Source: a virus
Strand: one strand, 5' to 3'
Length of the DNA stretch: 44,297 nucleotides
Virus record (IMG/VR): IMGVR_UViG_3300032116_000408
Coordinates: 1-44,297 of that record
In this document: one piece after another, positions 14,995 through 38,081 of the stretch
How positions within the stretch are numbered: position 1 is the stretch's first letter
How the letters are laid out: each line of letters starts with the position of its first letter
The notes under the pieces: generated by a model
Seen by the model: the letters and a program-made list of their open reading frames with translations, nothing else
The model's database searches: none
What the model was told of the DNA's origin: nothing
Position numbers and translations under genes: made by a program

Positions 14995-15636
14995 ATGAAA
15001 AAAGCATCAGGTAAAAGTAATCTATCAATTGTAAAAGATTACGTCGAAGGCAACCGTCCATTTGTACAGTTTGGTTACGATCCCAATTTAAACAATAATA
15101 AACGCAAAGAAGGTGAAGAGTGGGAAGACTCACAAGGTAGAAAGTGGATTTGGAAAAATGGTGTAAAACGTAGAGTTCCAAAGAAAGCTAAAATTATCAA
15201 CGAACAACGTTGTAAAGAATGTAATATGGATGTTCGGTGGGGGAATTATTTAGATGATCGTGTATGGCCAAAAACGGGCATGTGTTACGATTGTTATATT
15301 AATTTTCAAACCAATCTGAAATTGATTGGTATGTTTGAAATTTACAACGAACTTCAAGATTTGAAGAATGAACGTAGTATTTTAGAAGACTATAAGAAAA
15401 AATTTGAAGAAAGCAAAAAATTTTGTGAAGAAAATCAAGGTAAACCAGTTGAATTTTTAGAAGAAGATGGTTCTTTTGAACGATGGGAAGGTATTCAAGA
15501 TTATAATAAAATACTAGAAGATTTAAATAAAGATTTGGAGTTACTCTATAAACGTTTAGAAGAACTAAATGCCAAAATAAAAGAGTACGAAGAACAATAT
15601 GAGTCAGCAAAATCTCAGAGAAATAATAAAAAGTGA
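14995..15636 (+). CDS. Zinc-ribbon and coiled-coil protein next to terL (possible small terminase role)
   Basis: A 213-residue protein. The N-terminal part has VEGNRPFVQFGYDP and a W-rich strand pair (WEDSQGRKWIWKNG). A zinc ribbon follows (CKEC about 73-76, then CYDC about 97-100). The last 100 residues are a charged coiled coil. It sits directly upstream of and overlaps the terminase large subunit by 38 nt, the place of gp16 in T4. I do not see the gp16 helix-turn-helix, so a small terminase role rests on position only. Proteins with this W-strand plus zinc-ribbon plus coiled-coil plan are, from memory, recurrent next to terL in uncultured T4-like phages. The leader contains the palindrome AAATACGTATTT just before ATG. 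Confidence 0.6.
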   Translation: MKKASGKSNLSIVKDYVEGNRPFVQFGYDPNLNNNKRKEGEEWEDSQGRKWIWKNGVKRRVPKKAKIINEQRCKECNMDVRWGNYLDDRVWPKTGMCYDCYINFQTNLKLIGMFEIYNELQDLKNERSILEDYKKKFEESKKFCEENQGKPVEFLEEDGSFERWEGIQDYNKILEDLNKDLELLYKRLEELNAKIKEYEEQYESAKSQRNNKK

Positions 15637-16444
15637 GTATAAGAAGTGTATAGAAGATCCTATATACTTCATGAAAAAGTACGTTAAGATTCAACATCCT
15701 ATAAGAGGAACAGTTGGATTTGAACTATACCCATTTCAAGAAGAGGCTTTGGAAGAGTTTGTTGATAATCAATTAAACATTGTTCTTAAAAGTCGTCAGA
15801 TGGGTATTAGTACTCTTACCGCCGCATATAGTTTGTGGTTAATGACGTTCCACAATGATAAGAATATTCTTTGTATTAGTATTACTCAAGAAACCGCAAA
15901 AGAAATCGTTACCAAAGTAAGATTTGCAAATGATAATCTTCCAAGTTGGTTGAAAGTTCCTTGTGTAGAAGACAATAGATTATCATTACGATTGAAGAAT
16001 GGATCTCAAATCAAAGCGGTATCATCTGCCGGTACCGCAGGTCGTTCATCAGCTCTATCATTACTAATTATTGACGAAGCTGCATTTATCGATGGTATTG
16101 AGGAAATTTGGCTGTCTGCTCAATATACATTATCTACCGGTGGTAGAGCTATTATATTAAGTACTCCCAACGGCGTTGGTAACTTCTTCCATAAAACTTG
16201 GGTTGAAGCTGAAGAAGGTAAAAATAACTTCAAGACTATACGATTGCCATGGCATTTACATCCAGAAAGAGACCAGACTTGGAGAGATAAACAAACAGAA
16301 TTGTCGGGTGTGAAAGGAGCCGCACAAGAATGTGATTGTCTATGGGGAGACTCTGTTGTTAGAGTTAAAGATAAATTGTCTGGAAAAGAATTTGATATTT
16401 CTTTGGAAAAGTTATATTCTGGGGATTTACAATTATATGTATAA
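15599..16444 (+). CDS. Terminase large subunit, N-terminal half (ATPase) plus N-part of split intein
   Basis: Residues 1-246 are the packaging ATPase of a gp17-type terminase: Walker A-like KSRQMGISTL (64-73), Walker B LLIIDE (155-160), and coupling motif STPNG (188-192), followed by the linker region KGAAQECD. Instead of continuing into the nuclease domain, the frame enters an intein at C247 (CLWGDSVVRV) and stops after 35 intein residues. The matching C-part is encoded 758 nt downstream. After trans-splicing the two exteins join as QECD-CDFSTSG, the expected continuous terminase sequence, giving a mature protein of 529 residues (246 + 283). The gene starts inside the end of the upstream zinc-ribbon gene. 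The break is not a simple pseudogene because both intein ends are intact. Confidence 0.92.
   Translation: MSQQNLREIIKSEYKKCIEDPIYFMKKYVKIQHPIRGTVGFELYPFQEEALEEFVDNQLNIVLKSRQMGISTLTAAYSLWLMTFHNDKNILCISITQETAKEIVTKVRFANDNLPSWLKVPCVEDNRLSLRLKNGSQIKAVSSAGTAGRSSALSLLIIDEAAFIDGIEEIWLSAQYTLSTGGRAIILSTPNGVGNFFHKTWVEAEEGKNNFKTIRLPWHLHPERDQTWRDKQTELSGVKGAAQECDCLWGDSVVRVKDKLSGKEFDISLEKLYSGDLQLYV
16337..16441 (+). other. Split intein N-fragment (Int-N, 35 residues) in terL
   Basis: It begins with the catalytic Cys1 and block A (CLWGDSVVRV), then a short strand pair (EFDISLEKLY), and stops. It is much shorter than the roughly 90-100 residue N-part of classical split inteins. It resembles the atypically split TerL inteins typified by AceL-TerL, whose N-part is about 25 residues. 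Confidence 0.9.
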
Positions 16445-16447
16445 TAC

Positions 16448-17206
16448 ATGAATGTGATTGCGACTCATACGCATATGCCTAAAAATTATGCATCTATAGG
16501 ATGGAATAAAATCAAACAACAATTAAGTTGTGAAACAGATTTATATTCAACCGAGGAAACAAAATCCGAATTGTTAAAAAACGATTATTATAAATTTTTA
16601 TTTGGTCGTGCAAAGAATAGAACTTTGATGAAACAAAATCCAAAATTATACAAATCTATTCTTTTTCATACGGAGATTCTAGAAAAATCATTTAAACAAC
16701 AACAAAGTTACAAGGGATGGTATAGTTTTTCGTACCGAATTCGTTTTATTGTTGAACATAACTACGATTTAATAAAATTGAAATGTCAATGTGGAAAAAA
16801 AATAACATGGACTAAATATTGTCGTAGATGTCCTGAATATCATAAAACCCAGACCGGTAAATCACACACTCCGGAAACAAAACAAAAAATGAGAGTATCC
16901 GCGTTAAAGTATCTATCAGAAACAAAAGGACAAATTATACCCCGTTATAACAAGAGATCAATACAACTGATAGAGGAATTTGGTAATAAACATGGATATA
17001 CATTTAGACATGCTGAAAACGGAGGTGAGGTTTTTCTTAAAGAACTTGGTTATTGGTTGGATGCATATGATGAGAAAAATAACGTCGTGTTGGAAATATA
17101 TGAAAAAAGACACTATAAAAATGGTAAATTGAAACAACGAGATTTCCAACGAGAAAATGAAATTAAAAATTTATTAGGGTGTAAATTGTTCACGATTGAC
17201 ATATGA
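16448..17206 (+). CDS. Free-standing homing endonuclease (Vsr-like, EDxHD type) inside fractured terL
   Basis: A 252-residue nuclease gene lying between the two intein halves. It has a zinc-binding segment (C113, C115, C125, C128), a NUMOD3-like DNA-binding repeat (GKSHTPETKQKMRVSALKYL), and a C-terminal Vsr-like nuclease domain with E194, D205 (WLDAYDEKNNVVLEIYEKRH), E216, H222 and the RDFQRENEI helix. This matches the endonuclease class described in fractured, split-intein genes. It starts 3 nt after the Int-N stop and its stop overlaps the next start (ATGA), so all three frames form one translation unit. It presumably cuts uninterrupted terL alleles to spread the element. AT-rich and Lys-rich codon use differs little from its neighbours. 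Confidence 0.85.
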   Translation: MNVIATHTHMPKNYASIGWNKIKQQLSCETDLYSTEETKSELLKNDYYKFLFGRAKNRTLMKQNPKLYKSILFHTEILEKSFKQQQSYKGWYSFSYRIRFIVEHNYDLIKLKCQCGKKITWTKYCRRCPEYHKTQTGKSHTPETKQKMRVSALKYLSETKGQIIPRYNKRSIQLIEEFGNKHGYTFRHAENGGEVFLKELGYWLDAYDEKNNVVLEIYEKRHYKNGKLKQRDFQRENEIKNLLGCKLFTIDI

Positions 17207-17544
17207 ATCATTCGAAAATTAAACTAAATACTAGATTTCAGATTTTGACTCCGACTGGATATCAGGATTTTTTTGGAATCAGAAAAGTAAAAAAAGATTG
17301 TTATTATACCATTTTATTGAGTAACGGAAAAATAATAAAATGTTCGGATAATCATTCATTTATTTACAACAACGTCGAGGTTCGATCTCATGATATCAGT
17401 ATTGGATCAAAAATATCAGGAGTTGATGGTATAGAGGTGGTTGTTGTATCAATAGAAAAATTTGAAAACACGATTGATTTGTATGATATAGTAAATGTAT
17501 CAGGTGGTAATATTTTTAATGTAGATGGAATTGTTTCACATAAT
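17203..17544 (+). other. Split intein C-fragment (Int-C, 114 residues) in terL
   Basis: It carries block B (KCSDNHSFIYNN, with the conserved His in DNH), block F (IDLYDIVNVSGGNIF) and block G ending in His-Asn before Cys. With Int-N the total is 149 residues, the size of a complete mini-intein without a built-in endonuclease domain. Confidence 0.9.
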
Positions 17545-18396
17545 TGTGATTTTTCTACTTCTGGTAATCAAGTTGTTAGTGTAGATGTTCTTGAGTTTTA
17601 CAAACAAACATATTTAAAAGATCCTATAGAAAAACGTGGTAACAATCAAGATTTATGGATCTGGGATTATCCAAATTACAGCAAAAACTACATATTGACG
17701 GCGGATTGTGCTAGAGGAGATGGTGGAGATTTTAGTGCATTTCATGTTATTGACATTGAAACAATGGAACAAGTGGCTGAATACAAAGGTCAACTAACCA
17801 CTAAAGATTACGGTAATTTATTAGTCAGTGTAGCTACTGAATATAATAACGCATTGTTAGTTGTAGAAAATAACAACGTAGGATGGGGAACTCTTCAACA
17901 GATTATAGATAGAGACTATCAGAATACGTTTTATAGTGCAACCGATCTTACTATTGTAGATGTAGAAAAGTCTTATAGTAATAAATTACACGCGCAAGAT
18001 AAAAAATTAGTCGCTGGGTTTACAACAACGAGTAAAAATAGACCATTAATAGTGAGTAATTTAGAGTTATTTTTTAGACAAAAACAAGTTATAATCAAAT
18101 CAAAACGGTTATACGAAGAATTGAATGTATTTATTTGGAACGGACCGAAAGCCGAAGCGATGAGAGGTTATAACGACGATTTGGTGATGTCTATTGGTAT
18201 AGGATTATGGGTTCGTGAAACTGCTTTGAGGCTTAGAAACGATCAAATTGCATATAATAAAGCTATGATTTCTAAAATATCCAAAGTAACAAGTCCTGTA
18301 ATATTACCTAGAGAAATTAGCTCTATACCGGATTATCAAAAGACACTTGAATTTTCCGTTAATGATAAAAAAGAAAGTTTAACTTGGTTATTGTAA
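17203..18396 (+). CDS. C-part of split intein plus terminase large subunit C-terminal half (nuclease)
   Basis: The first 114 residues are intein, ending VDGIVSHN. C115 is the +1 nucleophile of the C-extein. The extein (283 residues) is the RNase H-like headful nuclease of gp17-type terminases: ILTADCARGDGGDFSAF with D168, LLVVENNNVGWG with E222, and the YNDDLVMS acidic pair at D325 and D326, which together make a plausible three-metal-ligand set. It starts on the ATGA overlap with the endonuclease and lacks its own Shine-Dalgarno, so translation probably depends on ribosomes finishing the endonuclease gene. Neither half can work alone; protein trans-splicing or non-covalent association is required for packaging. 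Confidence 0.92.
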   Translation: MNHSKIKLNTRFQILTPTGYQDFFGIRKVKKDCYYTILLSNGKIIKCSDNHSFIYNNVEVRSHDISIGSKISGVDGIEVVVVSIEKFENTIDLYDIVNVSGGNIFNVDGIVSHNCDFSTSGNQVVSVDVLEFYKQTYLKDPIEKRGNNQDLWIWDYPNYSKNYILTADCARGDGGDFSAFHVIDIETMEQVAEYKGQLTTKDYGNLLVSVATEYNNALLVVENNNVGWGTLQQIIDRDYQNTFYSATDLTIVDVEKSYSNKLHAQDKKLVAGFTTTSKNRPLIVSNLELFFRQKQVIIKSKRLYEELNVFIWNGPKAEAMRGYNDDLVMSIGIGLWVRETALRLRNDQIAYNKAMISKISKVTSPVILPREISSIPDYQKTLEFSVNDKKESLTWLL

Positions 18397-18405
18397 ATAC
18401 TTATA
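18397..18405 (+). promoter_or_regulatory. ATACTTATA element before portal gene
   Basis: One-base variant of the recurrent nonamer (C at position 4), 14 nt before ATG 18420. The gene for the 38140 tail protein has the same variant at the same 14-nt distance. Confidence 0.4.
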
Positions 18406-18419
18406 TAATAGAATAATAT

Positions 18420-20363
18420 ATGGCTGATCAATCATTTCAGGAATTAAGAAATCGTTCATTGTTTGCACGTTTGAAACGTTTGTTTTCAAACGATGTAATT
18501 GTTAGAAACATTGGCGGTAAAAAGTTAAAGGTAGTTGATACCGATGAAATTCAATATGCCACGGATCGTAATAGTTTAAGAGATCGTTTTAATAGATTAC
18601 GTACTACTTCATATAATCAATATACCAGAGATTTCAATCTATCATATCAAAGCAGTCGTGTAGAACTATTTCGTGACTATGATACGATGGACATGGATCC
18701 AATTCTAGCATCTGCTTTGGATATCTATGCCGATGAATGTACCACGCGAGATGAAATGGGGGAAATTTTACAAATTAAATCCAGTAATGATGAAATTAAA
18801 AACATACTTCATAACTTATTTTATGATATTCTAAATATTGAATTTAATCTATGGAGTTGGACTCGGTGTATGGTTAAATATGGAGATTTTTATCTTCGTT
18901 TACATATTAGTCCGGAATACGGTGTATATATGGTTGAACCGTTAAGCACTTATTATGTCACCCGAGTTGAAAATGCACATTTGCAAAACAAAAATTTTGT
19001 AAAATTTCAAGTTAATCTTCCATATGGCAATAAAATGGAAGATCTTGAAAATTATCAAATTGCACATTTTAGATTATTAAGTGATAGTAACTTCTTGCCA
19101 TACGGTAAGAGTATGTTGGAAGGTGCTCGTCGGGTTTGGAAACAATTGAGTTTGATGGAAGATGCAATGTTAATTCATCGTATCATGCGTGCTCCTGAAA
19201 AACGTATCTTCAAAGTTGATATCGGCAATATTCCTCCAAATGAAGTTGACAATCATATGGAACGAATTATGACTCAGATGAAAAAGGTTCCATATGTAGA
19301 TCAACAAACAGGCGATTACAATTTACGTTTCAATTTACAAAACATGGTTGAAGATTTCTTCTTGCCAGTTCGTGGTAGTGATAGTGGTACAAGCATTGAT
19401 AATTTGCCCGGATTGGAGTGGACAGGTACAGACGATATTGAATATCTTCGCAATAAGATGATGGCCGCACTTAAGATTCCAAAAGCATTTTTAGGATACG
19501 ATGAAAGTTTAAGTGGTAAAGCTACGTTAGCGGCTGAAGATATTCGTTTTGCTAGAACGATTCAACGTATACAGAGAATTATTGTAAGTGAATTAAATAA
19601 GATTGCCTTAATTCATTTATACAGTCAAGGATATCGCGATGAATCACTTGTTGATTTTACGTTAGAGTTGACCAATCCATCTACTATTTTTGAAAAAGAA
19701 AAAATAGATGTTTGGAAGAGTAAAGTTGAAGTATCTAAAGACATGCAAGAAAATAAGTTTTTTAGCAAAAAGTGGATTTATGAAAACGTGTTTGGTTTAA
19801 GTGATCAAAACATGATAGAGTTACAAAAACAATTAGTCGATGATGCTAAAGGTACTTATAGATTTAAGCAAATTGAAGACGAAGGTAATGATCCGGCGAT
19901 TAAGTTTTTGCAATCAAGTGAAGAAAAAACGGATGGAGAAGGTGGAGGAGATGAACCTCCCTCTGACAGTGGATTACCCACAGGAGATTCCGATATAAAT
20001 TCAGAACTATCAGGTAATAAAAAAGAAGAACCCCAAAAAGAACCAACTAAAGAACCATCTAAAGAACCATCTAAAGAACCAACTGGAGCTGCGGGGTCAA
20101 CTCCTCCAAAATTGTCCGAAAGAGATCAAAGTGGTAGAAAAGATGCTCGTAAATATCGGTTTGGAGAGGATCCCTTGGGTACGCTAGAAAATAACAGACG
20201 AAGTGATCTATCAGTAACACACAAATATAAAAACAAATCTCCATTATCATTGGAATCGTTGTCAGGACTTAATGATATGTTAAATACAGTTGATCAAGAA
20301 AAACAAATTTTAAGAGAGGGAAACGAAAAATCCTTTATGGATGAAAGAAATATAAAAGAATAA
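18420..20363 (+). CDS. Portal vertex protein (gp20-like)
   Basis: Dodecameric portal through which DNA is packaged by the terminase and to which the neck attaches. Recognised by the gp20-family core: FRDYDTMDMDPILASALDIYADE, split here as the family's Y-x-x-M-x-x-D region, then VYMVEPLSTYY, LPYGKSMLEGARRVWKQL, EDAMLIHRIMRAPEKRIF, and the conserved GSDSGTSIDNLPG followed by ALKIPKAFLGYDESLSGKAT. At 647 residues it is longer than T4 gp20 (about 520). The extra length is a hydrophilic C-terminal tail after residue 490, with a KEP[ST] repeat and a Gly/Glu-rich stretch. It follows terL by 23 nt. Confidence 0.95.
   Translation: MADQSFQELRNRSLFARLKRLFSNDVIVRNIGGKKLKVVDTDEIQYATDRNSLRDRFNRLRTTSYNQYTRDFNLSYQSSRVELFRDYDTMDMDPILASALDIYADECTTRDEMGEILQIKSSNDEIKNILHNLFYDILNIEFNLWSWTRCMVKYGDFYLRLHISPEYGVYMVEPLSTYYVTRVENAHLQNKNFVKFQVNLPYGNKMEDLENYQIAHFRLLSDSNFLPYGKSMLEGARRVWKQLSLMEDAMLIHRIMRAPEKRIFKVDIGNIPPNEVDNHMERIMTQMKKVPYVDQQTGDYNLRFNLQNMVEDFFLPVRGSDSGTSIDNLPGLEWTGTDDIEYLRNKMMAALKIPKAFLGYDESLSGKATLAAEDIRFARTIQRIQRIIVSELNKIALIHLYSQGYRDESLVDFTLELTNPSTIFEKEKIDVWKSKVEVSKDMQENKFFSKKWIYENVFGLSDQNMIELQKQLVDDAKGTYRFKQIEDEGNDPAIKFLQSSEEKTDGEGGGDEPPSDSGLPTGDSDINSELSGNKKEEPQKEPTKEPSKEPSKEPTGAAGSTPPKLSERDQSGRKDARKYRFGEDPLGTLENNRRSDLSVTHKYKNKSPLSLESLSGLNDMLNTVDQEKQILREGNEKSFMDERNIKE
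20037..20084 (+). repeat. 12-nt tandem repeat in portal C-terminal tail
   Basis: Four in-frame units of AAAGAACCA plus ACT or TCT, encoding KEPT, KEPS, KEPS, KEPT. Copy number could vary by slippage without changing frame. Confidence 0.85.
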
Positions 20364-20419: not shown

Positions 20420-21304
20420 ATGCATAAGAAAGCAAAACATTCAAAATTTAAGAATGCTGGAATATTGTTTGAACTTCTTACGCGTCAAATTACTGCAGAT
20501 ATTTTGGCGGGTAGAGATGAATCATTTACTAAAAATTTAATGTTTAAATACTTTCACGAAAGTAAAGAGCTTGGTAAAGAAGCACAGTTATACAATTTTG
20601 TTTTGCATCAAACCAGCAAAGATACCACATCCGCAGATCGTATTTTAAATGTTGTTTTACAAACACGTTCAAAATTAGATGAACGTGAATTGAACAAACA
20701 AAAATATAACGTAATCAAAGAAATAAAAGAAAAGTACAATATTGATGAATTTTTGAAGAACAAGATTCCCAATTATAAATTATACGCTTCTATTTATAAA
20801 CTATTTGAAAATCAAGTAGAATGTGAAGTTAAGTTTGATATAAAAGAGTTAGTCGAGTCCAGAGAATATATCGTTGAAAATTTAACTAAAGAAAAAAAGA
20901 ATAGTGAAGAAAGTTTGGATGTTTATGGAAGTCAGAGTGCAGAAGTAAGATTGTTAGCATATAAATTCTTGATTGAAAATTTTAACACTAAGTATAGTAA
21001 TTTGTTACCTTCACAAAAGAAACTACTTAAAGAATACATTACAAATATTAGTAATTCAAGTAAATTTACTAAATTTGTAAATGAAGAGTATAAAAGAATA
21101 AGCATTTTATTGAAAGAAAATTTACAAACTGTAAATTCCGATGTGGTTAAAATTAAAATAACAGAAGTTGTTAATCAGTTTTCAAATAAAAACGTTGCGG
21201 GTGTGGTAAAAGAAAATCAGTTAACTTCATTGTTGAATGCATACGAATTAGTTGAAGAACTTGAAAAGTTAAAGAATGAAGGTACATCTAAAAAAGAAAA
21301 TTAA
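20420..21304 (+). CDS. Conserved virion-associated protein of unknown function
   Basis: A 294-residue, helical, Lys/Glu-rich protein. The N-terminus (HSKFKNAGILFELLTRQIT) has the look of a conserved segment that I recall from other T4-like marine phages, always near the portal. No catalytic motif is visible. It sits between portal and prohead protease, where T4 has the head-core genes 67 and 68, so a core or head-assembly role is plausible but not shown. Its end overlaps the next gene by 29 nt. Confidence 0.75.
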   Translation: MHKKAKHSKFKNAGILFELLTRQITADILAGRDESFTKNLMFKYFHESKELGKEAQLYNFVLHQTSKDTTSADRILNVVLQTRSKLDERELNKQKYNVIKEIKEKYNIDEFLKNKIPNYKLYASIYKLFENQVECEVKFDIKELVESREYIVENLTKEKKNSEESLDVYGSQSAEVRLLAYKFLIENFNTKYSNLLPSQKKLLKEYITNISNSSKFTKFVNEEYKRISILLKENLQTVNSDVVKIKITEVVNQFSNKNVAGVVKENQLTSLLNAYELVEELEKLKNEGTSKKEN

Positions 21305-27539: not shown

Positions 27540-27568
27540 AAAAACCCCAACGAAAGTTGGGGTTTTTT
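27540..27568. terminator. Bidirectional terminator between capsid gene and minus-strand Mom-like gene
   Basis: A 12-bp stem (AAAAACCCCAAC at 27540-27551, complement at 27556-27567) closes a GAAA tetraloop. T-runs occur on both strands. The minus-strand stop codon overlaps the outer stem, so both converging genes end here. Confidence 0.93.
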
Positions 27569-28340
27569 ATTCAAAAAATTGGTTATTATTTTGTACAATT
27601 ATTTCTTGAACTTCTTCTTTGAATGAAGCATTTTTGGGGTAATCAAGAACTTTATGTTTTAGTGATTTGACAAGTTTCTTGTTCTCTATTTTGTTGCTAA
27701 TAAATTTGATATAACGATACTTGCCACTTTCACGTTTACGCCAAAATGTTCTACCTATACGTTCTTTAAGTTTATCTACACTGTGTGTTTTCCACTTAGC
27801 ATATACACTTCTACTGTGTATCCATTTATAATTTGGAGGTCCATCTAAACTAACACTATAGTTGGGCATTAGTGCTACATCAACATAATTGTCTCCTTGA
27901 AAAAGAAAGCCCGTAGCTTGGTATATTGTACCTTTATGTCCTACTTCACTATCAGCATAACTTAAAATACATTTTATGTGGGGGTGTTCTTTATTGAGTA
28001 ATCTAAAACTTTCAGCTATACAATAACTTTCTATATTCTTGCCGTAACCGTCTGCAATCCACAGTCTTGTTAATTCTAACACATTATTGTTAACAAGTAG
28101 TGGTGATATACTGGTACTGGCGTTTCTACCCACGGCATTTCCATATACCAATACACCTATTAATCTTTCGTTAAATCCACCAAAGAATGTACTCTCAATA
28201 TATTCTTTGTAATAAACTCCATAAGCTACTGTACATAGACTCCATTTGTGAGTATAATGATTCTTTTCAATAAGTGTTTTTGCAACATTCTTATTGATGC
28301 TTTTGAGGTAAATTAATGTGGGATCAAAATACTCGGACAT
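27567..28340 (-). CDS. Mom-like DNA modification protein (GNAT-related)
   Basis: A 257-residue protein resembling the phage Mu Mom family, whose founding member converts adenine in DNA to a carbamoylmethyl form that blocks restriction enzymes. The visible pattern is: early KNHYTHKW (His28 Tyr29), RLIGVLVYGNAVGRNAS, VLELTRLWIAD (E89-x-x-R92), a helix CIAESFRLLN, then CILSYADSEVGHKGTIYQATGF (131-145 region), quoted here in two overlapping parts: ILSYADSEVGH and GHKGTIYQATGF. It lies on the opposite strand to the surrounding virion genes, suggesting separate, probably early, expression. A different GNAT-type reaction is possible; the base that is modified cannot be inferred. Confidence 0.7.
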   Translation of the reverse strand: MSEYFDPTLIYLKSINKNVAKTLIEKNHYTHKWSLCTVAYGVYYKEYIESTFFGGFNERLIGVLVYGNAVGRNASTSISPLLVNNNVLELTRLWIADGYGKNIESYCIAESFRLLNKEHPHIKCILSYADSEVGHKGTIYQATGFLFQGDNYVDVALMPNYSVSLDGPPNYKWIHSRSVYAKWKTHSVDKLKERIGRTFWRKRESGKYRYIKFISNKIENKKLVKSLKHKVLDYPKNASFKEEVQEIIVQNNNQFFE

Positions 28341-31581: not shown

Positions 31582-32868
31582 ATGAGTGCTAATTTGGACC
31601 AAGACAGAGTGAGGTGGCCTGGGAGTGGAAGTGCTGTTAATAGCGGCAGTGTTCCATTCGGCTATTATCTAGACGAAACCTGTACATCAGGCGAGACTAC
31701 ATTTGAAAATGATTGTAGTAGCAGCGCGATGTGGGCAGCAAAACGTCTTGGATACCCGATTGTTGACATAGAAATGATTGATGTCAATTTTTATGCTTGT
31801 TTTGAAGAAGCTACGTTAGAATATAATCGTGTAATTAATGAATTTAATATCGTAAATAACTTAGTATCATTACAAGGTTTACCACAAAGTAAGTACGATA
31901 ATTTAACCGGGTTGGCAATGAAAAGTACAGGGTTGCCTTATGTTGTACAACTAAGCAAACAATATGGCGCAGAAGCATTGGTCGGTGGAGAATATGAAGT
32001 AAAAAGAAATTATATTAGTATTACAGGCAGTAGCAATCCGGCTAATACAAATCAAGTCTATGACTTAAATGCTTTAATAGGCGAAAATATAGAACATCTT
32101 ACTGGATCTAGAATAGAAGTGAAAAGAGTGTTTCATTACAGACCACCAGCTATAGCACGTATTTATGATCCATTTAGTATGACAGGTATGAGCTACAGCA
32201 ACGTACTTACCGAAATGGGATTTAGCGCATATAGTCCAGCAACACAATTCTTAATGACTCCTATATTTGAGGATTTGGAACGTGTACAAGCAATTGAATT
32301 CAACGATATGGTTAGAAAAAGTGCTTATAGCTTTGAAATATTAGGAAACAACAAATTAAGAATATTTCCTATACCAACCGACAGTTTTAAAATTTATATA
32401 GATTATATCGTTGAAAGTGAACGTGATATAACAAACTTTTACAGCGGATCTCGTTACGAATATATTAGTGATCCAAGCGATGTGCCTTACGAAAATTGTA
32501 CTTACTGCAAAATTAATCAGCCTGGCAAACAATGGATTAAAAAATATTTTCTAGCTTTATGTAAAGAAACACTCGGTCGTATTCTTCAAAAATATAGTAC
32601 CGTTCCAATTCCGGGTGGTGAAGTTACATTAGACGGTGCCGAATTAAGATCCGAAGCTAAAGAAGAAAAAGACACTTTGCTTGAAAAATTAAGAGATATG
32701 TTGGAAAAAACCTTGAGGGTTACACAATTGGAAAACAAGGGCAAAGAAGGTGAAGAAATGCAAAAGATGTTAGCTAGAGTACCACTACACATTTATATAG
32801 GGGTTTGGGCGTTTTTATTAATATATATTAATATATGGACAAACATCAATGTGGTATCTGCGGTTTAA
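31582..32868 (+). CDS. Neck protein, probably gp13-like
   Basis: A 428-residue virion protein. MWAAKRLGYPIVDIEMIDVN, FYACFEEATLEYNRVINEFN and LKIFIDY-like KIYIDYIVESERDI are typical of neck or head-completion proteins of uncultured T4-like phages. Order also supports it: it precedes gp14-like and gp15-like genes, as 13-14-15 in T4. The last 20 or so residues (VWAFLLIYINIWTNINVVSAV) read like non-native sequence, and they overlap the start of a homing endonuclease by 34 nt. The element has therefore probably replaced or extended the normal C-terminus just after VPLHIYIG. Confidence 0.7.
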   Translation: MSANLDQDRVRWPGSGSAVNSGSVPFGYYLDETCTSGETTFENDCSSSAMWAAKRLGYPIVDIEMIDVNFYACFEEATLEYNRVINEFNIVNNLVSLQGLPQSKYDNLTGLAMKSTGLPYVVQLSKQYGAEALVGGEYEVKRNYISITGSSNPANTNQVYDLNALIGENIEHLTGSRIEVKRVFHYRPPAIARIYDPFSMTGMSYSNVLTEMGFSAYSPATQFLMTPIFEDLERVQAIEFNDMVRKSAYSFEILGNNKLRIFPIPTDSFKIYIDYIVESERDITNFYSGSRYEYISDPSDVPYENCTYCKINQPGKQWIKKYFLALCKETLGRILQKYSTVPIPGGEVTLDGAELRSEAKEEKDTLLEKLRDMLEKTLRVTQLENKGKEGEEMQKMLARVPLHIYIGVWAFLLIYINIWTNINVVSAV

Positions 32869-33203
32869 AATATAAAAGTACACGATCTTTATCAATTCAT
32901 ATAAAATCTTCACATAAAATATCAACTGAAGAATATTATATAAAATATATTAATATAAATAAAAGTGAATGTAGTTATTGTAAATCTAAAACAAGATTTG
33001 TGTCTCTAGGAGATGGGTATTCAAAATACTGTGGTATTAAATGTTCAAAAGTACATTATTATAGTGATGTAAATAATAGGATTTTTGTATCGGAGAAAAC
33101 AAAGATTGCTATGAAAAATCCTATCGTTAAAGAAAAAATGTCTAAGTTTTTTTTGAAAAAAAAAATCAAAGGAAACTTTAGAAAAAATGAGCATATCCAG
33201 TAA
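32835..33203 (+). CDS. Homing endonuclease, N-terminal fragment (frameshifted)
   Basis: A 122-residue N-terminal part of a free-standing homing endonuclease: a C2H2-like finger (CGICGLKYKSTRSLSIHIKS ending in SSH), a ribbon with CSYC and CGIKC, then a NUMOD3-like basic repeat (EKTKIAMKNPIVKEKMSKFF). This order is usual in phage homing nucleases inserted between virion genes. The frame leaves the protein at an 8-T run, G, 10-A run (33147-33165) and stops at 33203. Removing one base there fuses it with the downstream nuclease part. Confidence 0.75.
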   Translation: MDKHQCGICGLKYKSTRSLSIHIKSSHKISTEEYYIKYININKSECSYCKSKTRFVSLGDGYSKYCGIKCSKVHYYSDVNNRIFVSEKTKIAMKNPIVKEKMSKFFLKKKIKGNFRKNEHIQ

Positions 33204-33729
33204 AAAAAGATTTGAAGATGAAAATTTTAAAAAAAAGATATATACCAAAGAAAGAAATGAAAAAATATCAATAGCAAAAAAGAAATATTGGGATACACAT
33301 CCGGAAGAGAAAAAACGTGTGGGTCAAATATGGAAAACGTTGAAAGAAGAAGACGAATCCAGGTGGAGGGAAAATTTATTAAGAGCATCTAGGTTAGGAT
33401 TTAAAAAAATTTTTTCTCCATCAGGAAACACATCGTTGGAGGAAAAATTATATAAACAACTAGAGTTAGAAAATATAAAATATATACCACAATATGTTAT
33501 AGATTATAAAGTATTTGACGCGTATTTACCTGATTATAATCTAGTAATTGAGGTAGATGGTATGTTTTGGCATCCAAAATCGTTGGACGAGTGTAAATAT
33601 AAATTTCAAAAAACATCATATTTTAATGATTTAGAAAAAGAAAATTTATTAAAACAAAAAGATATAAAATTAATACGAATACGAGAAAATGAATTTCCAG
33701 AATCAATCATTAACGTTATAAATAAATAA
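33187..33729 (+). CDS. Homing endonuclease, C-terminal nuclease fragment (Vsr/DUF559-like)
   Basis: A 180-residue frame, open from 33157 without an ATG, containing further NUMOD3-like repeats (KERNEKISIAKKKYWDTHPE). Its Vsr-like nuclease domain reads YVIDYKVFDAYLPDYNLVIE, then EVDGMFWH, then ENLLKQKDIKLIRIRENEF. The acidic residues of FDAYLP and VIEVDG are kept. As annotated it lacks the DNA-binding N-part encoded in the previous frame. It ends 22 nt before the gp14-like gene, so the whole element fills the gp13-gp14 gap without breaking the gp14-like gene. Confidence 0.75.
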   Translation: MSISSKKRFEDENFKKKIYTKERNEKISIAKKKYWDTHPEEKKRVGQIWKTLKEEDESRWRENLLRASRLGFKKIFSPSGNTSLEEKLYKQLELENIKYIPQYVIDYKVFDAYLPDYNLVIEVDGMFWHPKSLDECKYKFQKTSYFNDLEKENLLKQKDIKLIRIRENEFPESIINVINK

Positions 33730-35798: not shown

Positions 35799-38081
35799 AT
35801 GCCAAATTTAACAGTATCAAACGTAATTGACACATTTATGCAATCTGCTACTCAAGCAGATGCTCGTACAGCTTTAGGTATATCCAGTATAGTAGGTAGT
35901 TCCGGTTCTGCTGGATCAAGCGGCAATTCAGGTACAAATGGAAGTAGTGGAAGTTCAGGCACAACGGGTACAAGTGGTAGTTCTGGATCAAGTGGTACAT
36001 CAGGTAATAGTGGTACACACGGTACAAGTGGTGAAAATGGAAGTAGTGGTACAAGTGGTACCAGCGGCGTCAGTGGTATTTCAGGCGGTGCAATTTTATA
36101 TTTTAATACGTCTGTACCACAATCTCCATACAAAGAAATTTCTATAACGCCTACCGGTAACATTGAAATAACTTCTAGTATCTTTATTGCTAGTGGTAGT
36201 ACGTCAATATTAGAATCATATCAAACTCCTGTTGGATATCCAAATGTAACCAGTATTCCGGCCGGTATTTGGTCAATGTTTTTACACACGTCAAAACTAA
36301 ACGCTTCGTCATCATTTGAAATATCAACAGACGTTTATGCTAGATCAGGTAGTTCAGAGGTTTATTTGTTTTCTACAGATCCAGTAGATGTTACGTCGGT
36401 TTTGGTGCCTAGTATGGTTATAACCGATGTATATGAGTCGGGATATAGTCTGTCCACACAAGATAGAATTGTAGTAAAGATTATAGCTAAAAATAAAAAT
36501 GTCTTTACAGACAAAATAACTTTTTATACCGAAGGACAGTTACATTATTCATATTCACAAACTACACTCGGTTCCGTTAGTGGTACAAGTGGTAGTAGCG
36601 GTACAAGCGGCATTAATGGTAGCAGTGGTACAGGTGGTAGTAGTGGTAGTAGCGGTACAACCGGTAGTAGTGGATCATCTGGTAGTAGTGGTAGTAGCGG
36701 TACAAGTGGTACAACAGGTACAAGTGGTAGCAGCGGTACAAGTGGCAGCAGTGGTACGTCAGGTACAAGTGGCACAACCGGCAGTAGTGGTAGTAGCGGT
36801 ACAACCGGCAGTAGTGGTACAAGTGGAATTAGTGGCAGTAGTGGCAGTAGTGGCAGTAGTGGCAGTAGTGGCAGTAGTGGTACCAGTGGTGTAGGAGGTA
36901 GCAGTGGTACAAGCGGCATTAGTGGTAGCAGTGGCACAAGTGGCACAGTTGGAAGTAGTGGTAGTAGCGGTACAAGTGGAAGTAGTGGCAGCAGTGGTAG
37001 CAGTGGTGTAGGAGGTAGCAGCGGTAGTAGTGGTTTAAATGGAAGTAGTGGTACAAGCGGTACTACCGGTAGCAGTGGTACAAGCGGTAGTAGCGGTAGC
37101 AGTGGCATTGGTAGTAGTGGCAGTGCTGGTTCAGCTGGTACAGGTGGTAGTAGTGGTACCAGTTTTGGTACGAGTGGTAGTAGCGGCAGTAGTGGTACAG
37201 GAATAAGCGGATCTGCCGGATCCGCTGGTACGGGTGGTAGTAGTGGTACCAGTTTTGGTACGAGTGGTAGTAGTGGAACTGACGGCACAAGCGGTAGTAG
37301 TGGAACTACCGGTACAAGTGGAAGTAGTGGAACTACCGGTACAAGCGGTAGTAGCGGTACAAGTGGAATTGGTGGTAGTAGTGGTACAAGTGGTAGCAGT
37401 GGAACTACCGGTACAAGTGGTAGCAGTGGAACCACCGGTACAAGTGGTAGCAGCGGTAGTAGTGGTACAAGCGGAATTAGTGGCAGTAGTGGTACAAGCG
37501 GAATTAGTGGCAGTAGTGGCAGTAGTGGCAGTAGTGGTACCAGTGGTGTAGGAGGTAGCAGTGGTACAAGCGGCATTAGTGGTAGCAGTGGCACAAGTGG
37601 CACGGTTGGTAGTAGTGGCACAAGCGGAGTCGGCGTTCCATCAGGCGGCACTACCAATCAAGTATTAGCAAAAGCAAGCAATGCCGATTACGATACTACA
37701 TGGGTAAATCAAACCGGTGGCGGCGGCGGTAGCAGTGGTAGTAGTGGTAGTAGTGGTAGTAGTGTAAGTGTATCAGGTACTTTAAATAGAGTAATTAAAT
37801 TTACAAGTTCAAGTACTATTGGGGATACGACAGCTCCATTAAGCGAATTTTCTGGAAGCATAGGTATAGGTGTTATTACGTCGTCAAATATATCTAATAA
37901 ATTACACGTTTCTTCTTCAAGTAATCCGGTAAGACTGGAAGGATTGGTTTCTTCTTCAAATGATACTAGATTTATGTCTGTAAACGCAACCGGCGTTATA
38001 AGATTTAGAAATATTACTATAGGTACCGCTTCACCTACAGGCGGGTATGACGGCGATATATACTTACAATATACCCCATAA
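35799..38081 (+). CDS. Tail fibre-like protein with long Ser/Thr Gly-X-Y repeats
   Basis: A 760-residue protein. The N-terminus (LTVSNVIDTFMQSATQADAR) is probably the attachment part. Residues about 32-98 and 259-610 are uninterrupted Gly-X-Y triplets, nearly all GSS, GTS, GTT, GIS or GVG, with almost no proline. Between them is a beta-sandwich-like domain (about 99-258). The C-terminus has the common fibre motif GGTTNQVLAKASNADYDTTW, a GSS linker and a final beta domain ending GDIYLQYTP. A collagen-like trimeric rod is likely. Dense Ser/Thr makes it an obvious candidate acceptor for the phage glycosyltransferases (inference). It starts 4 nt after the gp15-like stop. Confidence 0.85.
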   Translation: MPNLTVSNVIDTFMQSATQADARTALGISSIVGSSGSAGSSGNSGTNGSSGSSGTTGTSGSSGSSGTSGNSGTHGTSGENGSSGTSGTSGVSGISGGAILYFNTSVPQSPYKEISITPTGNIEITSSIFIASGSTSILESYQTPVGYPNVTSIPAGIWSMFLHTSKLNASSSFEISTDVYARSGSSEVYLFSTDPVDVTSVLVPSMVITDVYESGYSLSTQDRIVVKIIAKNKNVFTDKITFYTEGQLHYSYSQTTLGSVSGTSGSSGTSGINGSSGTGGSSGSSGTTGSSGSSGSSGSSGTSGTTGTSGSSGTSGSSGTSGTSGTTGSSGSSGTTGSSGTSGISGSSGSSGSSGSSGSSGTSGVGGSSGTSGISGSSGTSGTVGSSGSSGTSGSSGSSGSSGVGGSSGSSGLNGSSGTSGTTGSSGTSGSSGSSGIGSSGSAGSAGTGGSSGTSFGTSGSSGSSGTGISGSAGSAGTGGSSGTSFGTSGSSGTDGTSGSSGTTGTSGSSGTTGTSGSSGTSGIGGSSGTSGSSGTTGTSGSSGTTGTSGSSGSSGTSGISGSSGTSGISGSSGSSGSSGTSGVGGSSGTSGISGSSGTSGTVGSSGTSGVGVPSGGTTNQVLAKASNADYDTTWVNQTGGGGGSSGSSGSSGSSVSVSGTLNRVIKFTSSSTIGDTTAPLSEFSGSIGIGVITSSNISNKLHVSSSSNPVRLEGLVSSSNDTRFMSVNATGVIRFRNITIGTASPTGGYDGDIYLQYTP
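36848..36946 (+). repeat. 99-nt direct repeat, copy 1, in fibre gene
   Basis: Identical by eye to 37505-37603 (offset 657 nt); the next base differs (A at 36947, G at 37604). Encodes the segment containing GTSGVGGSSGTSGISG. Identity without synonymous change implies recent duplication or gene conversion. Confidence 0.85.
37143..37183 (+). repeat. 41-nt direct repeat, copy 1 (GSSGTSFGTSG block)
   Basis: Identical to 37233-37273, 90 nt downstream. A 21-nt core is also present at about 44061 in the last gene of the window, so the block is shared between two fibre genes. Confidence 0.8.
37233..37273 (+). repeat. 41-nt direct repeat, copy 2
   Basis: Second copy of the block at 37143. The Phe it encodes (SGTSFGTSG) breaks the Gly-X-Y triplet register, a possible hinge. 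Confidence 0.8.
37505..37603 (+). repeat. 99-nt direct repeat, copy 2, in fibre gene
   Basis: Partner of the copy at 36848. Upstream it carries three CAGTAGTGG units where the first copy has five, so the boundary shows slippage. Confidence 0.85.

Follow-up and report, generated by a model that had tools for sequence, protein, structure and literature searches.

The large terminase gene (terL) of an environmental virus was found to be distributed over three open reading frames (ORFs) by an insert that combines the two parts of an atypically split intein with a free-standing endonuclease gene. The stretch of DNA concerned is IMG/VR virus record IMGVR_UViG_3300032116_000408, analyzed over its full 44,297 nucleotides and referred to here as the window; the presence of Gp20 and Gp23 homologues points to a T4-like environmental phage. 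With high confidence, the insert is read as a mobile fractured-gene element in terL, made up of a split intein predicted to splice in trans, an endonuclease predicted to confer homing, and an operator-like copy of the insertion site.

A terL gene carried by three ORFs

The first ORF (plus strand, 15599-16444, 281 aa) encodes 246 residues of TerL ending in GAAQECD (TerL-N), followed by Cys247 and the CLWGDS...LYV tail that forms the N-terminal intein part (IntN), and its stop codon occupies 16442-16444. The endonuclease ORF (16448-17206, 252 aa) lies between the two terL halves, and its TGA stop overlaps, as ATGA, the ATG of the third ORF (17203-18396, 397 aa). The latter encodes the C-terminal intein part (IntC), 114 residues (Met counted) ending in GIVSHN, and then 283 residues of TerL (TerL-C), namely a Cys encoded at 17545 and 282 more. 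Both halves were recognized as terminase, TerL-N by Pfam Terminase_6N (1.3e-12) and PHROGs phrog_5989 (3.1e-41) and TerL-C by phrog_24361 (1.5e-13), the intein-splicing match in the latter being sub-threshold. Among isolates, TerL-N is nearest to a Microcystis phage (63.8%) and Flavobacterium phages (60.6%).

The joined exteins form a continuous TerL across QECDCDF. An empty site exists, as 105 loci (some of them one contig under two ids) are uninterrupted at the QECD-CDF junction, and empty terL alleles are up to 98% identical to the TerL-N of the window. A first-pass annotation, made by a model from the letters alone, had taken terL to be fractured with exteins continuous at QECD-CDFS and had proposed a search for alleles lacking the element; the ORFs and the Pfam and PHROGs matches bear out the former, and the 105 loci with an intact site answer to both. 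It had also treated the stop at 16442 as real. An assembly error is indeed unlikely at this place, because five IMG/VR contigs (L001-L005; L-numbers label the relatives' loci compared with the window) share the window structure, stop included, at 100% protein identity, and the break is retained in diverged relatives, which stop at similar places.

The known introns of phage terL genes, such as that of ICP1 (PMC10448857), invite the alternative that the insert is a group I or group II intron, or is bypassed by frameshift read-through, so that TerL arises from one message or chain and the intein is unsplit. This is hardly credible, since Rfam gave no match at the gathering threshold in window positions 15000-19000, the insert length of 1,208 puts the exteins out of frame, the IntN stop recurs in relatives, and the continuous versions L031, L235 and L280 are without the endonuclease.

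The intein halves

IntC matched chain B of PDB entry 6dsl, the consensus atypically split intein Cat (E 1.3e-17), and the split into a 35-aa IntN and a 114-aa IntC fits the atypical pattern of short IntN and long IntC. With intein block names and the canonical split position used in their customary sense, class 1 features are present in the form of Cys1, a block-B S-D-N-H (SxxH), a terminal S-H-N and a Cys+1 nucleophile. C47, H51, D95, S112, H113 and N114 are invariant across all 16 aligned IntC sequences, and the endonuclease-less L010 and L133 belong to this set, with H51, D95, H113 and N114 in place. IntN measures 30-38 aa in most relatives; the nearest endonuclease-bearing kin (L007-L009) have 31 aa, compared with 35 in the window, where the stop codon falls a few codons later.

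At the same terL position as the window element, L031 carries a continuous intein of 144 aa, for which an AlphaFold model was obtained with a predicted local distance difference test (pLDDT) score of 76. This model matched 6dsl in Foldseek (E 4.0e-06) and in a second structural aligner (Z 9.3 over 99 residues; other inteins up to Z 13.0), and the break of the split forms aligns to its low-confidence loop at about residues 31-33, after the first helix. The atypical split near intein residue 30 proposed in the first-pass annotation thus agrees with the stops of the relatives and with the IntC match to Cat. Its description of the window as a distinct member with a 35/114 split stands in part: judged by its sequence, the element joins the AceL/GOS-TerL kind as a new member, one that is not rare, but the split itself is not distinctive, GOS-TerL being tabulated at 37/115 (PMC11766414).

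The ratio of nonsynonymous to synonymous divergence (omega) is given only for pairs with an estimable synonymous divergence (dS), which is saturated or zero in several pairs. Values were 0.06-0.26 for IntC (except one pair with 0.52 at dS 0.03), 0-0.32 for IntN (27 codons) and 0.07-0.28 for the endonuclease (full-length pairs, dS >0.3), with the 10-codon endonuclease remnant of L024/L026 as an exception (0.65). These ratios indicate that IntN, IntC and the endonuclease are under purifying selection in most estimable pairs. By analogy with a ribonucleotide reductase that is split by a homing endonuclease gene and functions as two peptides (PMC10448857), the TerL halves might act as separate subunits without splicing, with the intein pieces as decaying remnants. 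Such a state is very unlikely in view of the purifying selection on IntN and IntC and of the four residues that are invariant even in the endonuclease-less L010 and L133.

The endonuclease

Ten relatives that are 50-90% identical to the window endonuclease share a CxC...CxxC pattern, and E194, D205, E216, H222, D232 and R235 are invariant in all 11 aligned proteins. The true start may be the ATG at 16475, where the relatives begin. In the structural model (pLDDT 80, predicted template modelling score 0.47), the C-terminal domain, at about residues 166-252, is restriction-endonuclease-like; Foldseek retrieved I-Bth0305I (3r3p; prob 0.92, E 0.16) and Vsr (prob 0.41, E 0.49), and the second aligner placed I-Bth0305I at Z 6.8 (root mean square deviation 3.9, 73 aligned) and Vsr (1cw0) at Z 6.2. 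A profile of the endonuclease retrieved nothing relevant from the PDB sequences, 3r3p included, and no GIY-YIG family match was found in the window protein. NUMOD3 matches are weak and occur in 7 of the 11 endonucleases (best E 0.0046). With the EDxHD motif taken in its usual spacing, the fold class of the model and the residue pattern make an EDxHD/Vsr-like enzyme likely as to fold class, its family membership being putative. This agrees with the free-standing Vsr-like endonuclease that had been proposed between the halves.

When the window endonuclease was used as query, IntC was found beside it in 16 of 17 confirmed viral loci; the contig of the exception, L160, breaks off inside the endonuclease, downstream of TerL-N and IntN. 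A profile search kept 80 loci of 399 relatives, 77 of them with IntC, and the three loci without it (L228, L232, L233) match the C-terminal part of the endonuclease only. In cellular genomes, 109 pattern matches gave 0 confirmed endonucleases.

Movement of the element as a unit

Comparison of L007 with L154 shows a new feature of these elements, in that IntN, endonuclease and IntC appear from their divergence to move together as a unit, because the two elements are near-identical while the TerL halves have diverged. The dS amounts to 0.60 in TerL-N and 1.23 in TerL-C, as against 0.00 in IntN, 0.01 in the endonuclease and 0.03 in IntC, and the inserts differ at 8 of 1,208 bases (1,200 shared). 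The pair L007/L009 presents a weaker version (TerL dS 0.73 and 1.58 vs 0.00-0.15 in the element), and for the window compared with L007, the element and the exteins have similar dS.

A different trace is seen in L024 and L026. Their terL sequences agree at every position between 60 and 360 bp to the left and between 180 and 600 bp to the right of the insert; the 60-bp steps adjoining the insert are at 0.93 on the left and 0.93, 0.95 and 0.98 on the right, and IntC is at 0.85. This co-conversion-like pattern is as would be expected for gene conversion with a short co-converted tract.

A range of states at one terL site

From 104 loci, 52 non-redundant inserts were derived; as endonuclease sequences served as queries in retrieving many of the loci, the share of endonuclease-bearing inserts among them is inflated. 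In 41 of the inserts, the endonuclease has a near full-length ORF of its own (4 with one in-frame stop); in 2 it is fused to IntN (L214, L216) and in 3 it is partial (L024, L026, L231). Another 5 lack this endonuclease as judged by tblastn (L010; L133; L020, where a short remnant is left; and the two GIY-YIG records, L164 and L165), and 1 is a continuous intein (L031). The first-pass annotation had singled out the in-place endonuclease as special, which does not hold, since a near full-length one is kept by 10 of the 15 non-redundant relatives that the IntC query retrieved.

A further scan comprised 80 loci, 19 of which were examined. It added the continuous inteins L235/L236 and L280/L282/L283, and L246, L304 and L310 in other extein contexts; L249, a split intein without endonuclease; L261, in which the endonuclease is deleted and the site copy described below is retained; and L301, a remnant-bearing relative of the endonuclease-less L133. 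L280 is nearest to L200 (TerL-N 86%, IntC 63%) and reads QEPEYLL where L200 has QECDYL and a stop, which suggests that it is a re-fused intein, the direction of change being our reading of the two sequences. No endonuclease inside one continuous intein was found among the classified inserts of this family (52 plus 19 examined). To judge from these loci, a single terL site thus occurs with continuous, fractured and perhaps re-fused inteins, and with the endonuclease decayed or absent; the coexistence of these states is new. The window had been put forward as a good example of how such splits arise; it is insufficient by itself, and it is the relatives that supply the series of states.

Some further inserts were observed among these loci. 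In L027, one stop codon (insert positions 973-975) interrupts the IntC frame, by decay, sequencing error or recoding. L122 and L125 carry a different continuous intein-like insert of 371 codons with an internal domain, which lies after TerL-N residue 245 and adjoins the site of the present element. Intein-like matches in terL follow TerL-N residues ~69, 152 and 234 in L304 and L310, the last being continuous, and residue 69 also in Vibrio phage VP-1 (L163). Within the ATPase half, L067 and L246 have a further intein-like insert, at about TerL-N residues 156-165.

A copy of the insertion site before the endonuclease

A 15-bp copy of the insertion site, absent from the first-pass annotation, is located at 16447-16461, between IntN and the endonuclease. 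It is identical to the terL junction at 13 of 15 positions, and at 16 of 18 over 16446-16463. Many relatives have CAAGAATGTGATTGT or a close form 3' of the IntN stop, corresponding to positions -12 to +3 of the terL junction, and a copy was assigned in 20 of 51 non-redundant split inserts. Compared with all other 16-mers of the same terL, the match reached p<0.01 in 13 and p<0.05 in 15 of the 51 inserts; with 15-mers and a wider region, these numbers were 11 and 18. These p-values are per locus, and the loci are related; a chance origin was also tested against shuffles of the spacer and by lineage. When one locus was taken for each of the 17 lineages inserted at Cys247, the summed match peaked exactly at -12, ranking first of 1,186 terL coordinates (181 vs 163 for the best score elsewhere, z 4.7). 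The copy is clear (>=12/15) in 9 lineages and matches at 7-9 of 15 positions in the other 8. In L010, the best match was on the right-hand side of the insert (p about 0.014), inside a general intein motif. The GIY-YIG records L164 and L165 have no site copy. No description of a homing-site copy before a split-intein endonuclease was found in the titles and abstract openings of the open-licence literature.

Two origins were considered and rejected. Recent conversion of the copy from the terL of the same genome is not apparent, the match being 12.70/15 to its own target vs 12.59/15 to the targets of others, and a protein-coding origin is dismissed because the frame of the copy relative to IntN and endonuclease differs between loci. 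In most of the 20 copies, a start codon is directly followed by a stop codon (ATGTGA, GTGTGA, ATGTAA; not in L157, L183 and L211), which would either derive from the target itself or serve in translation.

A mere scar is another way to account for the copy: a mini-intein would have captured an endonuclease already adapted to this terL site, together with a piece of terL that has no present function. Collaborative homing has been described (PMC2988022), and one endonuclease clade without a match in the spacer carries related sequence in frame at the IntN tail, which ends in QECDYL, QEGDYL or similar; the continuous intein L280 has its QEPEYLL at the same place. The evidence from this clade consists mainly of protein tails, the match at the DNA level being weak (p 0.007-0.65 in 11 assigned), and on an endonuclease tree of 41 rows the presence of the copy in either form, as opposed to none, needs 7 changes. 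Conservation and frame speak against the scar. In the 20 inserts chosen for the copy, information content is 1.60 bits per position in the copy, compared with 0.76 upstream and 0.51 downstream, though most aligned endonucleases are only about half identical to that of the window, and the frame of the copy varies as noted above. As a neutral scar should decay, conservation at such distance makes this explanation rather doubtful.

A promoter-like motif and a possible off-switch

The copy is preceded by TATGTATA, one mismatch from TATTTATA. Nine of the 16 plus-strand occurrences of TATTTATA in the window lie 8-30 nt upstream of one of the 31 listed starts (8 genes), with a distance of 11-14 nt to the ATG in seven of the nine. 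For the remaining 55 8-mers of the same composition the mean is 1.04, and ATATTTAT, a one-base-shifted form of TATTTATA among them, also reaches 9. The motif is perhaps a phage-wide expression signal, acting as a promoter or in translation; the genes that it precedes start at 20420, 22915, 28406, 29341, 31582, 33752, 41027 and 43519. A search for sigma-70 promoters gave no signal (17 found vs 17.5 expected). Beside the copy, TATTTATA with at most one mismatch occurs within 16 bases upstream in 14 of the 20 inserts (exact in 5), most often starting at -10.

A comparable arrangement is known from I-TevI of the T4 td intron, where a sequence resembling the homing site (15 of 20 bases are the same) overlaps the late promoter of the endonuclease. 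The enzyme binds this operator as well as its homing site, with ~100-fold weaker cutting, and acts as its own repressor (PMC2988022). In outline, the sequence arrangement of the window resembles this system; I-TevI is a GIY-YIG enzyme in an intron, whereas the window element combines another nuclease fold with a split intein. By analogy, the site copy probably is an operator that limits expression of the endonuclease. An operator is somewhat favored over a bare scar, and the two may also apply one after the other. A joint reading, according to which these elements carry their own off-switch at the promoter motif and the homing-site copy, and the copy began as a scar of capture, is advanced tentatively, its chances being put a little short of even. 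Since the copy lacks the right half of the site, the endonuclease would then bind it without cleavage and would repress itself, convergently with I-TevI and in an unrelated nuclease family. The copy would at the same time mark the capture of an endonuclease at a non-canonical position of the HINT fold, a capture that would account for the origin of atypically split inteins.

Proposed mechanism and points against it

In the mechanism proposed here, TerL would be made as two proteins, the IntN and IntC parts of which would together form a class-1-type HINT domain and, by splicing in trans, yield intact TerL, as suggested by sequence and fold. The endonuclease would cut uninterrupted terL at QECD-CDF, and repair from the element-bearing genome would copy IntN, endonuclease and IntC together, a step supported by the divergence data in relatives. 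As the endonuclease gene sits ~30 residues into the HINT fold, off the canonical site, the gene would stay broken and the intein would work in trans. The site copy and the promoter-like motif ahead of the endonuclease would provide an operator for self-limitation.

Several observations weigh against this interpretation. As to the intein, IntN alone gave no meaningful PDB match and the Pfam intein matches were below the cut-off. As to the endonuclease, mitoribosomal proteins occupy the top structural rows (Z 9.0-10.4, above the 6.8 of I-Bth0305I) and Foldseek returned 0 rows at E 0.001 or better. Clear unit transfer is confined to 2 of 14 pairs (L007/L154 and L007/L009); in the remainder, element and exteins diverge alike or show less of a contrast, or their dS is saturated. 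L024 and L026 diverge again at 360-600 bp left of the insert (0.92-0.98), and comparison of the window with the nearest empty alleles showed no co-conversion gradient. The copy is not recognizable after the stop in 8 of the 17 lineages and is lacking in loci inserted at Cys245. Lastly, the fit of the motif beside the copy is modest owing to AT-richness: the geometric mean of same-composition 8-mers that equal it is 16%, and at the place of TATGTATA in the window 18% fit as well.

Comparison with known systems

Fractured genes in which split-intein parts flank a free-standing endonuclease of a new family were reportedly described by Dassa et al. in 2009, and these genes are said to be canonically split near the usual endonuclease site, whereas the break in the window lies near intein residue 30. 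No site copy ahead of the endonuclease is known to us from fractured genes of that type.

AceL-TerL, GOS-TerL and Cat resemble the window element in host protein, short IntN and long IntC (tabulated splits of 25/104, 37/115 and 30/104, respectively; PMC11766414), and the window IntC is homologous to Cat. The window element has an in-place endonuclease preceded by a site copy, and close relatives of it have measurably moved.

Split TerL with intein parts around an endonuclease is also found in Aeromonas phage PX29 (17A/17B), Serratia phage 92A1, Providencia phage PSTRCR_127 and Vibrio phage 1.244.A, with the insertion at or next to the homologous terL position. In PX29 (L165), the endonuclease is GIY-YIG according to the record note and shares one ORF with IntC; in Vibrio 1.244.A (L164), it was read by eye as GIY-YIG and shares one ORF with IntN. 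The Providencia and Serratia phages have separate GIY-YIG-like genes, the SegE GIY-YIG match being above the cut-off in the former and below it in the latter. In the literature, related arrangements pair a GIY-YIG endonuclease with a class 3 split intein (PMC7891396) and an HNH endonuclease with a split PolB intein (PMC6892783), and an IntN of 15 aa is on record (PMC10189870); endonuclease families have been listed (PMC6083498) and phage endonucleases surveyed (PMC10448857).

Beyer et al. considered it puzzling that intein endonucleases always occupy one place in the fold (PMC6801210). In the loci studied here, the endonuclease is encoded at another place: it has a gene of its own in most of the 52 inserts and is joined to an intein half in a few. 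This is consistent with the idea that in-frame insertion outside the usual place would impair splicing and that fracturing the gene offers a way round. The presence of several states in extant phages at one terL site makes the origin of atypically split inteins testable. If the copy is an operator, self-restraint of homing endonucleases would have arisen more than once along the same lines. The numerous naturally occurring IntN/IntC pairs also represent new material for protein ligation.

Coordinates of the features and other genes of the window

Table 1. Positions of the terL element and its parts in the window.
Feature	Position	Strand	Basis
TerL N-extein (ATPase half), 246 aa, ends AAQECD	15599..16336	+	Terminase_6N, phrog_5989, empty alleles
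IntN, 35 aa from Cys1, with stop 16442-16444	16337..16444	+	First 27-28 residues conserved
TATGTATA, putative promoter element, overlaps IntN end	16436..16443	+	One mismatch from TATTTATA
Insertion-site copy CATGAATGTGATTGC	16447..16461	+	13/15 vs terL junction CAAGAATGTGAT followed by TGT
Homing endonuclease ORF, 252 aa	16448..17206	+	ORF call; alignment with ten relatives
Cys113-x-Cys115...Cys125-x2-Cys128, putative zinc-binding knuckle	16784..16831	+	Invariant in 11/11; weak NUMOD3 match follows
Nuclease domain, restriction-endonuclease-like, residues about 169-252	16952..17203	+	Alignment, model, fold searches
IntC, 114 aa, ends Ser-His-Asn	17203..17544	+	Cat match; alignment
TerL C-extein (nuclease half), begins Cys+1 (CDFSTSG)	17545..18396	+	phrog_24361; junction uninterrupted in 105 loci

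Elsewhere in the window, a second endonuclease-like gene (32835-33729) extends over two overlapping frames and overlaps the 3' end of the ORF at 31582-32868. It consists of a C2H2-like zinc finger piece (32835-33203) and a Vsr/MTES_1575-like piece (33187-33729), with sub-threshold Pfam matches, and is possibly frameshifted. A Mom-like protein (Pfam Mom, 1.4e-42) is encoded on the minus strand at 27567-28340, adjoining the major capsid gene, and the ORFs at 35799-38081 and from 43519 to the end contain long GSSGTSG-type low-complexity repeats.

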